From Acidobacteriota bacterium (GTDB taxonomy: Bacteria > Acidobacteriota > Thermoanaerobaculia > UBA5066): a DNA stretch of 64,000 nt. A program made the position numbers and the translations under genes. The notes under the pieces were generated by a model that was not told the origin of the DNA, ran no database searches, and saw nothing but the letters and a program-made list of their open reading frames with translations. Numbering within the stretch: the stretch's first letter is position 1; each line of letters opens with the position of its first letter. Below, piece by piece: positions 30,589-37,857 of this stretch. The DNA lies in contig JAKOVQ010000005.1 in NCBI GenBank assembly GCA_029781975.1, positions 186,001-250,000 of the forward strand, written 5' to 3'.

Positions 30589-30721
30589 CGAAACCCCCCG
30601 GTCGCGCGGGCGCGGGGCGCTCCGATTGTGACCGAAGCGGGCTTCCGCCCGCACCTCATCCGACGCGGCAGGAGGGGGCCCCGTTGACAAGACGGCCCCT
30701 CGGGGCCCAAATTCCCCGCGA

Positions 30722-30810
30722 CCGGAGCCTAGGGGTGGCCGGCAGGGCCGGCCTGAGATCACACCCTCGAACCTGATCCGGGTCATACCGGCGAAGGGAA
30801 AGGCAACCGG
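30722..30810 (+). ncRNA. TPP riboswitch aptamer (THI element)
   Basis: The conserved THI-box parts are in order: AGGGGTG (30731-30737), a P3 stem of 7 bp (30737-30743 with 30747-30753), CTGAGAT with ACCC, GAACCTGATC, and TACCGGCGAAGGGA at 30787-30800. P1 is GCCT (30727-30730) with AGGC (30801-30804), extended by CCGG (30722-30725) with CCGG (30807-30810). It binds thiamine pyrophosphate. It precedes the TonB receptor, permease and kinase genes. Confidence 0.95.
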
Positions 30811-30890
30811 GAGGACGGTCCTCCCGGATCCATCTCAGCTCCCAGGGTCCGCTTCAACGAGCCCGGACGACGCGCGTCCGGGCCGGGAGG
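30807..30890 (+). promoter_or_regulatory. TPP riboswitch expression platform, SD sequestration
   Basis: CCGGGAGGA (30807-30815) can pair with TCCTCCCGG (30819-30827). The same anti-SD segment, CCTCCCGG, is also complementary to CCGGGAGG at 30883-30890, which is the SD of the receptor gene. Since 30807-30810 also belongs to extended P1, TPP binding would free the anti-SD to hide the SD. A second hairpin (30862-30869 with 30875-30882) abuts the SD. No U-tract, so translational control is favoured. Confidence 0.75.
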
Positions 30891-30896
30891 CGAACG

Positions 30897-33290
30897 ATGT
30901 CCCGAACCACCGGACCCGGCAGTCCCGGAGCGGCCGCAGCCGCTCTCCTCCTCGCGGCGCTTGCGCTCTCCCCCGGCGCCGACGCGTTCCCCGCCGGCGC
31001 GGCCGGCCCCGCCGCCGTCGCGAGCCCTCCGGCCGCCGCGGACGCCGCCGTCGTCACGGGGACGGTGACCGACCCGGCCGGCAAGCCCGTGGCCGGCGCG
31101 GTCGTGGCGGCCTCCGGCGGGGCGGAGGCGGTCACCGGCCCCGACGGCCGCTACCGGCTGCCGGTCGCGGCGGGGAGCGTGACGCTCACCGCCGTCGCCG
31201 CCGGGCGCCTCGCGGCGACGCGGACGCTGGCGGCCGGTCGGGGCGAGACCCGCGTCGACTTCGTCCTCGCGGCGCCTCCGCGCCGGACCGAGGAGATCGT
31301 CGTCCAGGCGGTCCGCGCCGACCCGGAGACCCCGATCACGAAGACCGACATCTCCCGCCAGGAGCTCGAGCGGCGGAACACGGGCCCCGAGATGCCGACC
31401 CTCCTCGAGGACGTCCCCTCCGTCACGCAGTACTCCGAGACCGGCTCGGGATCGGGCTACAACTACCTCTCCCTTCGCGGCATCGGGACGACGCGCATCA
31501 ACTACACGCTCGACGGCGTCCCGCTCGCCGAGCCGGAGGACAGCAACCTCTACTTCGTCGACTTCGCCGACCTCGCGAGCTCGCTCGACAGCGTCCAGGT
31601 GCAGCGCGGCGTCGGGACCTCTTCGGCCGGGCCCGCCAGCTTCGCCGGCTCGGTCAACTTCGCCAGCCTCCCCCTCACCGACACGCGCGAGATCTCGGCT
31701 CGCCTCGGCCTCGGCTCGTTCGGCACGGGGCGGGCGAGCGTCGGCGTCCAGACCGGGCGGATCGGTCCCGGCATCAAGCTCTACGTCCGCGGCTCCTGGC
31801 AGGAGACCGACGGCTTCCGCGACCACTCGGGCGTCGCCCAGAGGAGCCTCTTCTTCGGGGCCGAGCACGAGAGCGAGGGGAGCTTCTTCAAGCTCTTCGG
31901 CTTCGTCGGGCGCGAGAGGACAGAGGAGGCGTTCCTCGCGGCCGACGCGGCGACGCTCGAGACGAACCTCCGCGCGAACCCGCTCTCCCCCGAGGAGCGC
32001 GACGCGTTCGGCCAGCAGTTCGTCCAGGCCCAGTTCACCCGCTTCCTCGGGACCTCGAGCGTCACGCTGCAGGGCTTCTACAACGGCGCCGGAGGCTGGT
32101 ACCGCCTCTGGGACTCGCCCGAAAAGGCGCAGCTCTGGCAGTACGGCCTCGACTGGACGAACCTCGGGGGCGCCCTCACGTTCAAGGGGCGGTGGGACCG
32201 CTTCTCGCTCACCGCGAACGCAAACGTGGCCGACTTCTCCTCGCGCCACGTCCGCGACGTGGTGGACGGGCCGCGCTCCTACGAGAACCACGGCTACAAG
32301 AACGAGGTCAACGCCTTCGCCAAGCTCGGCTGGGACTCCGGCCGCTGGCACCTCTACGGCGACGCGCAGGTGCGCTGGGCGCGCTTCCGCTACGCGGGCG
32401 ACATCGACATCGGCTCGGTCTCCTGGACCTTCTTCAACCCCAAGGTGGGCGTCCGCTGGGACCTCTCGAAGGCGACGGCGCTCTACGCCTCCGTCGGCCG
32501 GACGACGCGCGAGCCGGCGCGGGGCGACCTCTTCTCGGGCGAGGACAACCCGTCGGTGAGGTACGACCTGACGGCCGTGAAGCCGGAGAAGGTGACGGCG
32601 GTCGAGCTCGGCGTCGAGGCCCGCGCCGGGGCCGTCAAGGCTCACGTCAACCTCTTCGCGATGGAGTTCCGGGACGAGATCGCCCTCACCGGCGAGCTCT
32701 CCGACATCGGCCTCCCCCTCCGCCGCAACGCCCCGCGGAGCTTCCGCCGCGGCCTCGAGTGGGACGTCGCGTACGCCCCCGCCCCCGCGCTCCGCCTGAG
32801 GACCACCGGGAGCCTCAACTGGAGCCGGATCTCCGACTGGACGCAGTACCTCGACGTCTACGACGCCGCGGGGAGCTGGGTCGACAGCGTCCCGAGGGAG
32901 TACCACGACGTCGAGCCGCTCCTGACGCCTCCCGTCGTCGTCAACCTCGAGGCGGGGTGGAGCGCCACGCCGTGGCTCGACCTCGGGGCGACGGGGCGGT
33001 GGGTCTCGCGCGCCTGGCTCGACAACACCGACACGGCGGGCCTCGAGACCCCCTCGTGGTTCCGGCTCGACGCCGAGGCGACGGCCGACCTCTCGGGGTG
33101 GATCGCCGTCGGCCACCCGCGGCTGAAGGTGGTCGTCGACAACGTCCTCGACTCGAGGCGCCTCTTCGCCAGCGGCTACTCGTACCTCTACCTGACGCGC
33201 GACGCCGGCGGCGAGAGCGAGACCGGCATCCCCTACTACTACCCGCTCGCCACCCGGAGCGTGAGGGCGCTCCTCGACCTCTCGTTCTGA
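30897..33290 (+). CDS. TonB-dependent receptor, probable thiamine uptake
   Basis: 797 residues: signal peptide (to about residue 30), a carboxypeptidase-regulatory-like beta domain (about 45-125), TonB-box region EEIVVQAVRA, plug domain with LSLRGIGTTRINYTLDGVPL, then a 22-strand barrel ending in LLDLSF. It would import a ligand across the outer membrane with TonB energy. The TPP riboswitch directly upstream identifies thiamine or a phosphorylated form as the probable ligand. SD GGGAGG 6 nt before ATG 30897 is the riboswitch target. Confidence 0.9.
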   Translation: MSRTTGPGSPGAAAAALLLAALALSPGADAFPAGAAGPAAVASPPAAADAAVVTGTVTDPAGKPVAGAVVAASGGAEAVTGPDGRYRLPVAAGSVTLTAVAAGRLAATRTLAAGRGETRVDFVLAAPPRRTEEIVVQAVRADPETPITKTDISRQELERRNTGPEMPTLLEDVPSVTQYSETGSGSGYNYLSLRGIGTTRINYTLDGVPLAEPEDSNLYFVDFADLASSLDSVQVQRGVGTSSAGPASFAGSVNFASLPLTDTREISARLGLGSFGTGRASVGVQTGRIGPGIKLYVRGSWQETDGFRDHSGVAQRSLFFGAEHESEGSFFKLFGFVGRERTEEAFLAADAATLETNLRANPLSPEERDAFGQQFVQAQFTRFLGTSSVTLQGFYNGAGGWYRLWDSPEKAQLWQYGLDWTNLGGALTFKGRWDRFSLTANANVADFSSRHVRDVVDGPRSYENHGYKNEVNAFAKLGWDSGRWHLYGDAQVRWARFRYAGDIDIGSVSWTFFNPKVGVRWDLSKATALYASVGRTTREPARGDLFSGEDNPSVRYDLTAVKPEKVTAVELGVEARAGAVKAHVNLFAMEFRDEIALTGELSDIGLPLRRNAPRSFRRGLEWDVAYAPAPALRLRTTGSLNWSRISDWTQYLDVYDAAGSWVDSVPREYHDVEPLLTPPVVVNLEAGWSATPWLDLGATGRWVSRAWLDNTDTAGLETPSWFRLDAEATADLSGWIAVGHPRLKVVVDNVLDSRRLFASGYSYLYLTRDAGGESETGIPYYYPLATRSVRALLDLSF

Positions 33291-33306: not shown

Positions 33307-33906
33307 GTGAACCCCTACGAGATCGCCGGCTTCGTCTTCGGCGTCCTCGCCGTCTGGCTCACGGCGCGCGAGAGCGTCTGGTGCTGGCCGACCGGGCTCG
33401 TCAACGTCAGCCTCTACATCGTCGTCTTCTTCCAGTCGAAGCTCTACGCCGACATGGGGCTCCAGGTCGTCTACGTCGCCGTCTGCCTCTACGGCTGGTG
33501 GGAGTGGCTGCACGGCGGCGAGGGGGGCGGGAAGCTCGCGGTCTCGCGGACTCCGCGGAGGTGGATGGTCTCCCTCGCCGCCCTCGGGGCCGCCGGCGCC
33601 CTCGCGCTCGGCTTCCTCCTCCGGCGGCACACCGACGCCGCCCTCCCCTTCTGGGACGCGACGACGACCGCCTACAGCCTGGTCGCCCAGTTCCTCCAGA
33701 CGCGGAAGTGGATCGAGACCTGGTGGTTCTGGATCGCGGTCGACGTCGTCTACGTCGGGGTCTACGTCGTCAAGGGCCTCTGGCTCACGGCGCTCCTCTA
33801 CGCGATCTTCCTCGCGCTCTGCCTCGTCGGCCTGAGGGACTGGGGCCGGTCGCTGGCCGAGGGCCGGCGGCAGGCGGCGGCTTCGGCCGAGGCGCCGGCC
33901 GCGTGA
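33307..33906 (+). CDS. PnuC/PnuT-family vitamin permease
   Basis: 199 residues, seven TM helices, with PnuC-family motifs WPTGLVNVSLY, YGWWEWL and the repeat-related KWIETWWFWIAVDVVYVGVY. PnuC members facilitate diffusion of nicotinamide riboside; PnuT members do the same for thiamine. The TPP riboswitch operon makes PnuT the better call. GTG 33307 follows the receptor stop by 16 nt. Its stop overlaps the kinase gene (GTGA), consistent with transport followed by metabolic trapping. Confidence 0.85.
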   Translation: MNPYEIAGFVFGVLAVWLTARESVWCWPTGLVNVSLYIVVFFQSKLYADMGLQVVYVAVCLYGWWEWLHGGEGGGKLAVSRTPRRWMVSLAALGAAGALALGFLLRRHTDAALPFWDATTTAYSLVAQFLQTRKWIETWWFWIAVDVVYVGVYVVKGLWLTALLYAIFLALCLVGLRDWGRSLAEGRRQAAASAEAPAA

Positions 33907-34454
33907 GCGACGGCGCTCCCCTTCGCGTCGTCGTCACCGGCTCGGAGTGCACGGGCAAGACGACCCTCGCCTCGCGGCTCGGCGCGCGCTTCGGAGCGGT
34001 CTGGGTGCCCGAGTTCGCCCGGAGCTACGCGGACGCGAAGGGGGCGCCGCTCGACGCCGCCGACGTCGAGCCGATCGCCCGGGGCCAGCGTGCCGCCGAG
34101 GACGAAGGGGAGACGCGGGCGGCGGCCCTCCTCGTCCTCGACACCGACCTCCTCTCCACGGCGGTCTACGCCCGCCACTATTACGGCGCCTGCCCGGCGT
34201 GGATCGAGGATGCGGCCCGCTCCCGGCGGGCGGCCCTGTATCTCCTCTGCCACCCCGACGTCCCCTGGGCGCCGGACGGCGTCCGGGACCGGGGCGAGGC
34301 GCGCGAGGAGATGCACGCCCTCTTCCGCGAGGCCGTCGCCGCGCTCGTCCCGCTCGGCTCGAGGGTCGTGGACGTCCGCGGGAGCCGGCGCGAGCGCGAG
34401 GAGACGGCGGCCCGGGCGATCCGCGAGACGCTCGCCGCGCGATCGACCCGCTAG
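33903..34454 (+). CDS. NadR-like P-loop kinase, candidate thiamine kinase
   Basis: 183 residues: P-loop TGSECTGKTTL, then FARSYADAKG, LVLDTDLLSTAVYARHYYG and DVPWAPDGVRDRG. These match the C-terminal ribosylnicotinamide-kinase domain of NadR, without the N-terminal adenylyltransferase. NadR kinases phosphorylate nicotinamide riboside imported by PnuC. Here a TPP riboswitch controls the operon, so it may phosphorylate thiamine instead. GTG 33903 overlaps the permease stop. Enzyme specificity is inferred only. Confidence 0.8.
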   Translation: MSDGAPLRVVVTGSECTGKTTLASRLGARFGAVWVPEFARSYADAKGAPLDAADVEPIARGQRAAEDEGETRAAALLVLDTDLLSTAVYARHYYGACPAWIEDAARSRRAALYLLCHPDVPWAPDGVRDRGEAREEMHALFREAVAALVPLGSRVVDVRGSRREREETAARAIRETLAARSTR

Positions 34455-34599: not shown

Positions 34600-37500
34600 A
34601 TGGGGACTCGCGCCGCCCTCGGGGCCGTCGCGGCGGCATTCCTCCTCGGCGCGCCCGTCCGGGGTGCCCCGCCGGAATTCGAGCGCCTCTCGCTCGAGCA
34701 GGGGCTCTCGCAGAGCATCATCGAGGGGATCATCCAGGACCGGTCGGGATTCCTCTGGTTCGTCACCGAGGACGGGCTCAACCGGTACGACGGCACCCGT
34801 TTCACTGTCCGTCGAAACGACGCGAACGACCCGAACAGCCTCTCCTACAACGACCTCAAGACCGTCTTCGAGGACCGCGACGGGGTCCTCTGGGTCGGGA
34901 CGTTCGAGGGGGGGCTGAATCGATACGACCCGCGGGCGGGCCGGGTCACGCGCTACCGGCACGACCCGGCCGACCCGTCGAGCCTCGCCGCCAACACCGT
35001 CCGCGCCATCCTCGAGGACCGGACGGGGACGCTCTGGGTCGGGACGCAGGGGGGCGGGCTCGACCGCCTCGACAGGAAGAGCGGCCGCTTCGAGCACCTC
35101 CTCCCCGACCCGGCGAACGACGGAGCGCTCGCCGACGGCGACGTCCGCGCCCTTTGCGAGGACCGGGCCGGGACGCTCTGGGTGGGGACCGCGGCGGGGG
35201 GGCTCCACCGCTGGGACCGCGCCCGGCAAAGGTTCGTCCGCTACCCCGTGGACAGCGGGAACTCCTCGGCGCTTCCCCACGCGTGGGTCCAGGCCCTCTT
35301 CGAGGACCGCGAGGGGGCCCTCTGGGTCGGGACGCTCGGCGGGGGCCTCGCGCGGCTCGACCGGTCGACCGGCAGCTTCACCCGTTTCCGCGCCGACCCG
35401 TCCGACGCCTCGGCGCTCCCGTCGGACCGGGTCATGGCGGTCGCCGAGGACCACGAGGGACGTCTCTGGATCGCGACCGACGGAGGCGGCCTGGCCCGCC
35501 TCGACGCCTCGCGCCGCCGTTTCGAGACCTTCCGGAACCAGCCGGCGGACCCGCGAAGCCTCGCCACCGACCGGGTCTTCGCGCTGTTCGAGGACCGCTC
35601 GCGCGTCCTCTGGGTCGGCACCTACGGAGGGGGTCTCTGCAAGCTCGACCTCGGCCGGAAGAAGTTCGTGACCGTGAGGCACGAGCCGGACGACCCGCGG
35701 TCGCTGAGCCACGACATCGTCTGGTCGATCCTCGAGGACGAGAAGGGGATCCTCTGGGTCGGCACCGACAGCGGCGGGCTCAACCGGATCGACCGCGCGA
35801 GGGGAGAGTTCCGCGCGTACCGGCACGACCCGCGCGACCCGACGAGCCTCGCGCACGACACCGTCCGCCACGTCTCCCTCGACCGGCAGGGGAACCTCTG
35901 GGTCGCCACGCACGGGGGCGGCCTCGACCTCCTCGACCGCGCCACGGGGCGGTTCGTCCACCACCGGCACGACCCCGCGGACCCGGGCTCGATCGCCCAC
36001 GACGAGCTCCGGACTGTCTACGAGGACAGTCGCGGTACGCTCTGGGTCGCCACCTACGGGGGCGGCCTCGACCGCCTCGACCGGGCGACCGGCCGGTTCC
36101 TCCACCTCCGGCACGACCCGCGCGACCCCTCGAGCCTGCCGAACGACTACCTTCGGACCGTCTTCGAGGATTCGCGGGGCGCGCTCTGGGTCGGGACGAA
36201 CGGAGGGGGCCTGGCGCGCCTCGACCGCGACACGGGCCGCTTCGCGGTCTACCGGGCCGACCCGAGGGACACGACGACGCTCGGCAGCGACTACGTCTTC
36301 GCCCTCCTCGAGGCCCCCGGCGGGGGGCTCTGGATCGGGACGTACGGTGGCGGGATCGCCCGCTTCGACCGGGCCACCGGCCGCTTCCGCCGGTACACCG
36401 TCTCCGACGGCCTCCCGAGCGACTCGGTCTACGGCATCCTCCAGGACGCCCGCGGCCGGCTCTGGATGAGCACGAACCGGGGCCTCTGCCGCATCGACCC
36501 GAAGAGCGGCTCCTTCCACACCTTCGGGGTGAGCGACGGGCTGCAGGGCGAGGAGTTCAACGGCGGCGCCTACTTCCAGAGCGTGCGCGGGGAGATGTTC
36601 TTCGGCGGGATCCACGGGTTCAACTCGTTCTTCCCCGACGACATCGTCCTGAACGAGGTGCCGCCTCCGGTCGTCATCACGGACCTCCGGCTCTTCAACC
36701 GCTCGATTGCGCCCGGCGAGCTCTCCCAGGGGCGGGTGGTCCTGTCCCAGCCGGTCGAGTACGTCGACGCGATCGAGCTCGCCTGGGGGCAGGACGTCGT
36801 CACCCTCGAGTTCGCCGCCCTCCACTTCTCCGCGCCCGGGCGGAACCGCTACCGGTACCGCCTGGAGGGGTTCTCCGACGACTGGATCGAGGCCGACGCC
36901 GGGCGGCGGGCAGCCACCTTCACCCGCCTCTCGCCCGGCTCCTACGTCTTCCACGTCCAGGCTGCCAACCCGGACGGCGCCTGGAACCAGGAGGGCGCAC
37001 GCCTGGCGATCCGCGTCCTCCCCCCCTTCTGGGCGACCTGGTGGTTCCGCCTTCTCGCCCTCGCCGTCGGTGCCGGCCTGGTGGCGTTCGCCTGGGTCCG
37101 GCACGCGAGGACGATCCGCCTGAGCGCCGAGCTGCGCGCCGCCCACGACGCGCAGATGGCGATCATGCCGAGGTCCGACCCGACCCTCGACGGCTTCGAG
37201 GTCTCCGGGGCCTGCGTCTTCGCGAAAGACGTCGGCGGCGACTTCTTCGACTACGTCTCCCTCGAAGGAGACCCGCCGCGGCTCTGCGTCGTCGTCGGCG
37301 ACGTCGCCGGCAAGGGGATGACCTCCGCGATGGCCTCGGCCCTCTCGAGCGGGATGGTCCACGCGGAACTGAGGGCCGGCACCCCGATCGCGGAGGCGAT
37401 GACGCGTGTGAACCGCCTGGTCTACGCCAAGGCCGAGCGGCACATGTTCACCGCGCTCTGCCTGGCGACTCTCGACCCGGCCCGGCGGACCCTCGAGCTC

Positions 37501-37857
37501 GTGAACGCCGGCGTCTGCCCCCCGCTCCTCAAGCGCGGCGACGAGGTCGCCGAGCTCGAGTCGGCGGGCCCGTCGCTCCCGCTGGGCGCCCTGCCGTCCA
37601 CGGCCTACGAGAGCCGCGAGGTCGGGCTCCAGGCGGGCGACGTGGTCCTCCTCTACACCGACGGCGCGCCGGAGGCGGCCGACCGGTCGGGGGCGCAGTA
37701 CGGATACGAGGCCGTGCGCTCGTTCCTCGCCTCGCTTCCGACCTCCCGCCTCTCCGCGCGCGAGATCCGGCAGGCCCTCGTCCGAGAGCTCGCCCGCTTC
37801 GCGAGAGGCTCGCACCGCGCCGACGACACGACGCTCGTGGTGGTCAAGGCGCTCTGA
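34600..37857 (+). CDS. two-component-propeller sensor fused to PP2C (SpoIIE) phosphatase
   Basis: 1085 residues. Signal peptide, then 14 Reg_prop blades (core LWVGTxGGGLxRLD) spanning about 40-690, enough for two 7-blade propellers. A Y_Y_Y beta-sandwich follows (about 700-800; RYRLEGFSDDWIEA), one TM helix (LLALAVGAGLVAFAWV), then a SpoIIE-type PP2C domain (about 850-1085) with metal Asp in VGGDFFDY, VGDVAGKGMTSA, LLYTDGAPEA and ADDTTLVVV. Periplasmic ligand sensing coupled to dephosphorylation of a cytosolic anti-sigma antagonist is inferred. ATG 34600 has a nearby TATCAG box and no SD. Confidence 0.9.
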   Translation: MGTRAALGAVAAAFLLGAPVRGAPPEFERLSLEQGLSQSIIEGIIQDRSGFLWFVTEDGLNRYDGTRFTVRRNDANDPNSLSYNDLKTVFEDRDGVLWVGTFEGGLNRYDPRAGRVTRYRHDPADPSSLAANTVRAILEDRTGTLWVGTQGGGLDRLDRKSGRFEHLLPDPANDGALADGDVRALCEDRAGTLWVGTAAGGLHRWDRARQRFVRYPVDSGNSSALPHAWVQALFEDREGALWVGTLGGGLARLDRSTGSFTRFRADPSDASALPSDRVMAVAEDHEGRLWIATDGGGLARLDASRRRFETFRNQPADPRSLATDRVFALFEDRSRVLWVGTYGGGLCKLDLGRKKFVTVRHEPDDPRSLSHDIVWSILEDEKGILWVGTDSGGLNRIDRARGEFRAYRHDPRDPTSLAHDTVRHVSLDRQGNLWVATHGGGLDLLDRATGRFVHHRHDPADPGSIAHDELRTVYEDSRGTLWVATYGGGLDRLDRATGRFLHLRHDPRDPSSLPNDYLRTVFEDSRGALWVGTNGGGLARLDRDTGRFAVYRADPRDTTTLGSDYVFALLEAPGGGLWIGTYGGGIARFDRATGRFRRYTVSDGLPSDSVYGILQDARGRLWMSTNRGLCRIDPKSGSFHTFGVSDGLQGEEFNGGAYFQSVRGEMFFGGIHGFNSFFPDDIVLNEVPPPVVITDLRLFNRSIAPGELSQGRVVLSQPVEYVDAIELAWGQDVVTLEFAALHFSAPGRNRYRYRLEGFSDDWIEADAGRRAATFTRLSPGSYVFHVQAANPDGAWNQEGARLAIRVLPPFWATWWFRLLALAVGAGLVAFAWVRHARTIRLSAELRAAHDAQMAIMPRSDPTLDGFEVSGACVFAKDVGGDFFDYVSLEGDPPRLCVVVGDVAGKGMTSAMASALSSGMVHAELRAGTPIAEAMTRVNRLVYAKAERHMFTALCLATLDPARRTLELVNAGVCPPLLKRGDEVAELESAGPSLPLGALPSTAYESREVGLQAGDVVLLYTDGAPEAADRSGAQYGYEAVRSFLASLPTSRLSAREIRQALVRELARFARGSHRADDTTLVVVKAL

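Follow-up and report, generated by a model that had tools for sequence, protein, structure and literature searches.

A stand-alone NadR-type P-loop kinase in a TPP-riboswitch operon is very probably a thiamine kinase

Results

A riboswitch, a receptor, a permease and a kinase in one operon

The window analyzed here, a stretch of 64,000 nucleotides from an Acidobacteriota bacterium, contains a compact forward-strand operon consisting of a thiamine pyrophosphate (TPP) riboswitch, a TonB-dependent receptor, a PnuC-family permease and a small kinase (Table 1). The TPP riboswitch, the receptor and a PnuC/PnuT permease had been proposed as an operon by the original prediction, and each was identified again by its own model. 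The aptamer, which lies about 80 nt 5′ of the receptor gene, is the sole TPP riboswitch found in its own genome in an RF00059 search, and its core nucleotides are invariant in all 15 of the aligned riboswitch sequences, the window's counted. When positions 30818-30905 were folded with the aptamer 3′ strand left out, CCUCCC paired with GGGAGG, the Shine-Dalgarno sequence that precedes the ATG at 30897, and this pairing suggests that the leader is a translational OFF switch. A run of T belonging to an intrinsic terminator was looked for in the leader after the aptamer, and none was found.

Table 1. Features of the operon (positions in the window)
Feature	Position	Strand	Basis
TPP riboswitch aptamer	30721..30817	+	Rfam RF00059, 60.2 bits against a gathering cut-off of 54.3
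Probable expression platform	30818..30896	+	CCUCCC 30820-30825 can pair with Shine-Dalgarno GGGAGG 30885-30890
TonB-dependent outer-membrane receptor, probable thiamine receptor	30897..33290	+	PF00593, PF07715, PF13620
PnuT-type (PnuC-family) inner-membrane permease	33307..33906	+	PF04973, 200 bits; TIGR01528, 98 bits
Single-domain NadR-type P-loop kinase, proposed thiamine kinase	33903..34454	+	PF13521, 131 bits

Both plug and barrel are present in the receptor, orthologues of which sit 3′ of TPP riboswitches in relatives. The permease belongs to the PnuC family by its PF04973 match and by its match to the PnuC structure 4QTN (E 6e-12). Its presumed specificity for thiamine is read from context, with the riboswitch as the only guide, and sequence comparison yielded no residues that cleanly separate thiamine-linked from NadR-linked members. 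The kinase gene begins with a GTG (33903-33905) that runs into the permease stop codon, TGA (33904-33906), an arrangement implying translational coupling. About 145 bases 3′ of the kinase and on the same strand lies a further gene (34600-37857), outside the operon as counted here; going by its sequence, its product appears to be a sensor that combines beta-propeller repeats and a C-terminus resembling a phosphatase.

The kinase half of NadR on its own

The kinase is a stand-alone protein of 183 aa that matches Pfam AAA_28 (PF13521) with an E value of 7e-38. It covers only the kinase half of the NCBIfam model nadR_NMN_Atrans (TIGR01526; profile positions 164-308 of 325) with a score of 85 bits, far under the 341-bit cut-off, and the NMN adenylyltransferase (NMNAT) domain of NadR is absent. 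The AlphaFold2 model of the protein (pLDDT 95, pTM 0.91) was aligned by VIA-align with the kinase domain of five NadR structures over nearly the whole chain at Z 20-22, and thymidylate kinases rank behind these at Z ≤17. The protein therefore has the NadR kinase-domain fold by both PF13521 and structure, in agreement with its initial assignment to the ribosylnicotinamide kinase domain of NadR. Thiamine kinases are missing from the Foldseek and VIA-align matches listed for the model, a comparison that is not a test of function; ThiK models gave no match to the protein, and the TPK_catalytic domain PF04263 is absent from it.

These similarities invite the reading that the protein is an ordinary nicotinamide riboside kinase working with PnuC in NAD salvage, with its control by a TPP riboswitch being incidental. 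The fold and the nearest solved relatives are those of NadR, NCBI models call the permease PnuC, PnuC and NadR form the classical pair, and the permease lacks distinguishing residues. Against NAD salvage stand the loss of the NMNAT domain and the genomic distribution described below, as well as two positions in the kinase itself. Every one of the 49 thiamine-linked kinases in the alignment has both S85 and Y89, just past the DTD motif, and of the 18 NadR kinase domains none has this pair. Because the signature emerged post hoc, by looking, it is a lead and not a test, with S85 and Y89 as two candidate specificity residues. In a tree, the single-domain kinases also form a group that excludes the NadR domains; its support is modest (SH-aLRT 85 at the fork). 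Two rows of the tree that were first labeled NadR were later taken out of that class, L062 because an NMNAT match is lacking and L079 because its short ORF leaves no room for NMNAT. The former (L062:6432-7544, genome G176) is a second single-domain kinase in the genome of a same-family relative; it carries the NadR-like pair A85/W89, has no adjoining permease and is possibly a nicotinamide riboside kinase paralogue.

Recurrence within the phylum

Homologues of the kinase were found in 38 of the 396 genomes of the phylum. In 21 of these, the window's counted, a single-domain kinase occurs with PnuT, the TonB receptor and the riboswitch where the contig allows. A TPP riboswitch lies upstream in 15 of the 21 (in 14 the score exceeds the gathering cut-off of 54.3, and one falls just short at 54.2), and the remaining six comprise five loci that end at a contig edge and one (L047) with none nearby. 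Two genomes, G237 and G221, in which a single-domain kinase adjoins a permease and both receptor and riboswitch are lacking, were excluded from these counts. Because the arrangement recurs in many genomes, it is no chance product.

The two-domain NadR relatives differ from this set in several respects. In operon-type loci with a readable same-strand permease gene, the Walker A motif lies 3-39 nt past the permease stop, versus usually about 400-540 nt past the PnuC stop in the NadR-type set. All four NadR-type proteins that were scanned match the entire NadR model, the NMNAT part too, and no TPP riboswitch was found at the two-domain NadR loci of the phylum. A survey of NadR-like genes under TPP riboswitches had been proposed along with the original prediction, which named conserved NadR neighbors without thiamine regulation as the pattern that would speak against it. 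That pattern is seen in the two-domain NadR relatives and not in the single-domain proteins, which form a recurrent family.

A thiamine pathway with a missing first step

The window's own genome (a 54-contig assembly, 96% complete) encodes the thiamine monophosphate (TMP) kinase ThiL over cut-off at 276 bits, unlinked to the operon. A search of the genome for thiN, thiK and thiL, suggested at the outset, gave a clear pattern: ThiL is present and ThiN/TPK (PF04263) and ThiK are absent, with no match over cut-off elsewhere in the genome that could take the role. ThiC is likewise absent, and ThiE has no match over cut-off. The lone TMP-TENI match was rejected as a ThiE candidate, being a partial domain at 57.5 bits against a ThiE cut-off of 145.1. 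This TenI/ThiE-like domain aligns with no more than the later portion of the ThiE model and is fused to a shikimate kinase in one ORF adjoining accC (L081:5354-6496, C31 of the same genome). With ThiC absent and the TenI/ThiE-like domain incomplete, de novo thiamine synthesis that would make the kinase unnecessary was rejected. A separate NadR gene in this genome was also considered and set aside, as the second AAA_28 match looks like a different family.

The substrate of ThiL is TMP, and the known sources of TMP are ThiE and a thiamine kinase. Without TPK, ThiK, ThiC or a convincing ThiE, nothing known in this genome would supply ThiL with TMP. The same combination, ThiL kept without TPK, ThiK, ThiC and ThiE, is common to 15 near-complete operon genomes, the window's included. 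Across the operon set, ThiL is over cut-off in nearly all genomes, ThiE is mostly absent and ThiK is over cut-off in none. ThiC is present in 3 of 21 operon genomes versus 13 of 14 NadR-type genomes (p = 5e-6), or in 1 of 8 versus 12 of 12 when counted by family (p = 1e-4), a comparison limited by the non-independence of the genomes and the incompleteness of some; ThiE is distributed in parallel, with nearly all two-domain NadR genomes having both. The absence of TPK was not used as a statistical argument, as it is not significant alone: TPK occurs in only 23 of the 396 genomes of the phylum, and the chance probability of no overlap with the operon is 0.28.

The gap between thiamine and TMP in ThiL-bearing genomes argues against NAD salvage. 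It also bears on whether the kinase might instead be a thiamine pyrophosphokinase that converts thiamine to TPP directly. In favor of this, gut Bacteroidetes have tnr3 at the corresponding position of their OMthi-pnuT-tnr3 operons (PMC5613172). If it were a pyrophosphokinase, the ThiL retained in nearly all operon genomes, in which ThiE is mostly absent, would have no purpose, and NadR kinase domains transfer a single phosphate. Direct formation of TPP is very unlikely.

Thiamine transport genes beside the kinase in other phyla

A search of wider genome contigs returned at least 576 relatives. The 80 loci among the matches listed come mainly from Acidobacteriota, Gemmatimonadota, Gammaproteobacteria, relatives of Desulfovibrio, and Bacteroidota. 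PnuT is directly upstream of or fused to the kinase in 62 of these 80, and a TPP riboswitch was detected at E <1e-7 in 38 of the 80, using a riboswitch model built from the phylum set, with four loci repeating contigs used in building it. Several Gemmatimonadota have the receptor and its riboswitch on the opposite strand. No TPP riboswitch was found within 7 kb at many Gemmatimonadota and Desulfovibrio-type homologues, which counts against the thiamine-kinase reading.

Three further kinds of locus connect the kinase to thiamine. In L101, PnuT and the kinase form one ORF of 372 aa after a TPP riboswitch and a TonB receptor. In L145 (L145:4789-7537), a TPP riboswitch, a TonB receptor and the kinase occur with no Pnu permease gene between. 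At nine gammaproteobacterial loci, Pnu is absent and the kinase gene ends shortly before a TPP riboswitch that, where the operon could be read out, heads thiB, thiP and thiQ, the genes of the thiamine ABC transporter. All three are over their equivalog cut-offs in L120, and thiB is over its cut-off in L146 and L157. Because the riboswitch follows the kinase in the thiBPQ loci, the two are linked, and control of the kinase by the riboswitch is not implied. Together, the L101 fusion and the Pnu-free thiBPQ loci tie the kinase to thiamine transport independently of how the permease is read. In Ca. Thioglobus MED-G25 (L134:3637-4871), the kinase is retained and thiBPQ is absent at the same syntenic place; the neighborhood is otherwise similar, as if a segment between the kinase and a glutathione peroxidase-like gene had been deleted. 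This retention speaks against the thiamine-kinase reading.

With TPP riboswitches recurring at the kinase loci, thiBPQ linked to the kinase where Pnu is absent, and S85/Y89 fixed in these kinases and absent in NadR, we consider NAD salvage very improbable. The transporter genes also speak to a second alternative, in which the operon imports a precursor or breakdown product of thiamine (HMP, aminopyrimidine or hydroxyethylthiazole) that the kinase then phosphorylates. Substrates do vary among PnuC-family permeases (PMC7749635), and TPP riboswitches are known to control precursor salvage too (PMC3766115). However, precursors are useless for making thiamine without ThiE, which is not found over cut-off in most operon genomes, the window's own too, and the thiBPQ genes beside the kinase in Gammaproteobacteria fit models of thiamine transporters. 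A precursor as substrate is therefore very unlikely.

A group of single-domain homologues in Bacteroidota (L147, L156, L158, L159, L161, L162 and L163) was not counted among the proposed thiamine kinases. These have V or I at 85 and W at 89 in a VIKxW-type motif, in place of S85/Y89, and mostly follow a PnuC-family gene; an Rfam riboswitch check of five of the Bacteroidota single-domain loci found none.

Discussion

A thiamine-uptake operon in genomes with no known enzyme for the first step makes it very probable that this kinase is the missing one: an ATP-dependent thiamine kinase, derived from the NadR kinase domain, that would convert thiamine to thiamine monophosphate. The original prediction of a candidate non-orthologous thiamine kinase has thus been strengthened by recurrence, by the pathway gap, by the thiBPQ context and by the PnuT-kinase fusion, and comparative evidence strongly supports it. 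The kinase would have arisen from the ribosylnicotinamide-kinase domain of NadR by loss of the NMN adenylyltransferase domain. In the proposed pathway, the TonB receptor would bring scarce thiamine across the outer membrane and PnuT would let it equilibrate over the inner membrane, where the kinase would trap it as TMP, much as NadR does with nicotinamide riboside imported by PnuC. The unlinked ThiL would then convert TMP to TPP, which would turn the operon off via the riboswitch. We infer the substrate, the product, the trapping and this direction of regulation from the comparisons above.

More broadly, it is probable that stand-alone NadR-type P-loop kinases, as a widespread family, have switched substrate from nicotinamide riboside to thiamine, constituting a third, unrelated type of thiamine-phosphorylating enzyme beside ThiK and TPK that supplies ThiL in B1-auxotrophic Acidobacteriota and probably does likewise in Gemmatimonadota and some Gammaproteobacteria. 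No published NadR-type or candidate thiamine kinase of this sort was found in open-access full texts, a scope that omits older papers naming PnuT and Pnu reviews, so a prior suggestion is possible. If true, the assignment would fill a gap in vitamin B1 salvage in large groups of mostly uncultured bacteria in which ThiL is kept and no known enzyme makes its substrate. The permease and kinase genes, likely mis-annotated at present, would no longer be taken for nicotinamide riboside salvage, and they would provide a clear case of a transporter and kinase pair changing vitamin together.

Comparison with known systems

The closest structural comparison is the kinase domain of NadR (H. influenzae 1LW7, L. 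lactis 6GYE, and 8X7F), which shares the P-loop kinase fold over the whole chain as well as Walker A, the DTD motif, the conserved residues E37, R40 and R128, and a place after a PnuC-family permease. Unlike NadR, the window kinase has neither an NMNAT nor a DNA-binding domain, has S85/Y89 where NadR has mostly T/A/V and W/F, and has a TPP riboswitch and thiamine transporters for neighbors. In operon design, the nearest counterpart is the OMthi-PnuT-Tnr3 operon with which gut Bacteroidetes take up thiamine, in which a TPP riboswitch, a TonB receptor and PnuT are likewise followed by a kinase gene (PMC5613172). In the window, a NadR-type P-loop kinase replaces Tnr3, and with this replacement ThiL would be needed. 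The reaction proposed here, thiamine to TMP with ThiL completing the pathway, is that of E. coli ThiK (YcfN). ThiK is of the aminoglycoside-phosphotransferase/choline-kinase type, in contrast to the NadR-type P-loop kinase of the window, which has no match to the ThiK family TIGR02721. Finally, the strategy proposed here resembles that of PnuC-NadR salvage of nicotinamide riboside, in which facilitated uptake is followed by trapping through phosphorylation, applied by context to another vitamin and with no adenylyltransferase step.
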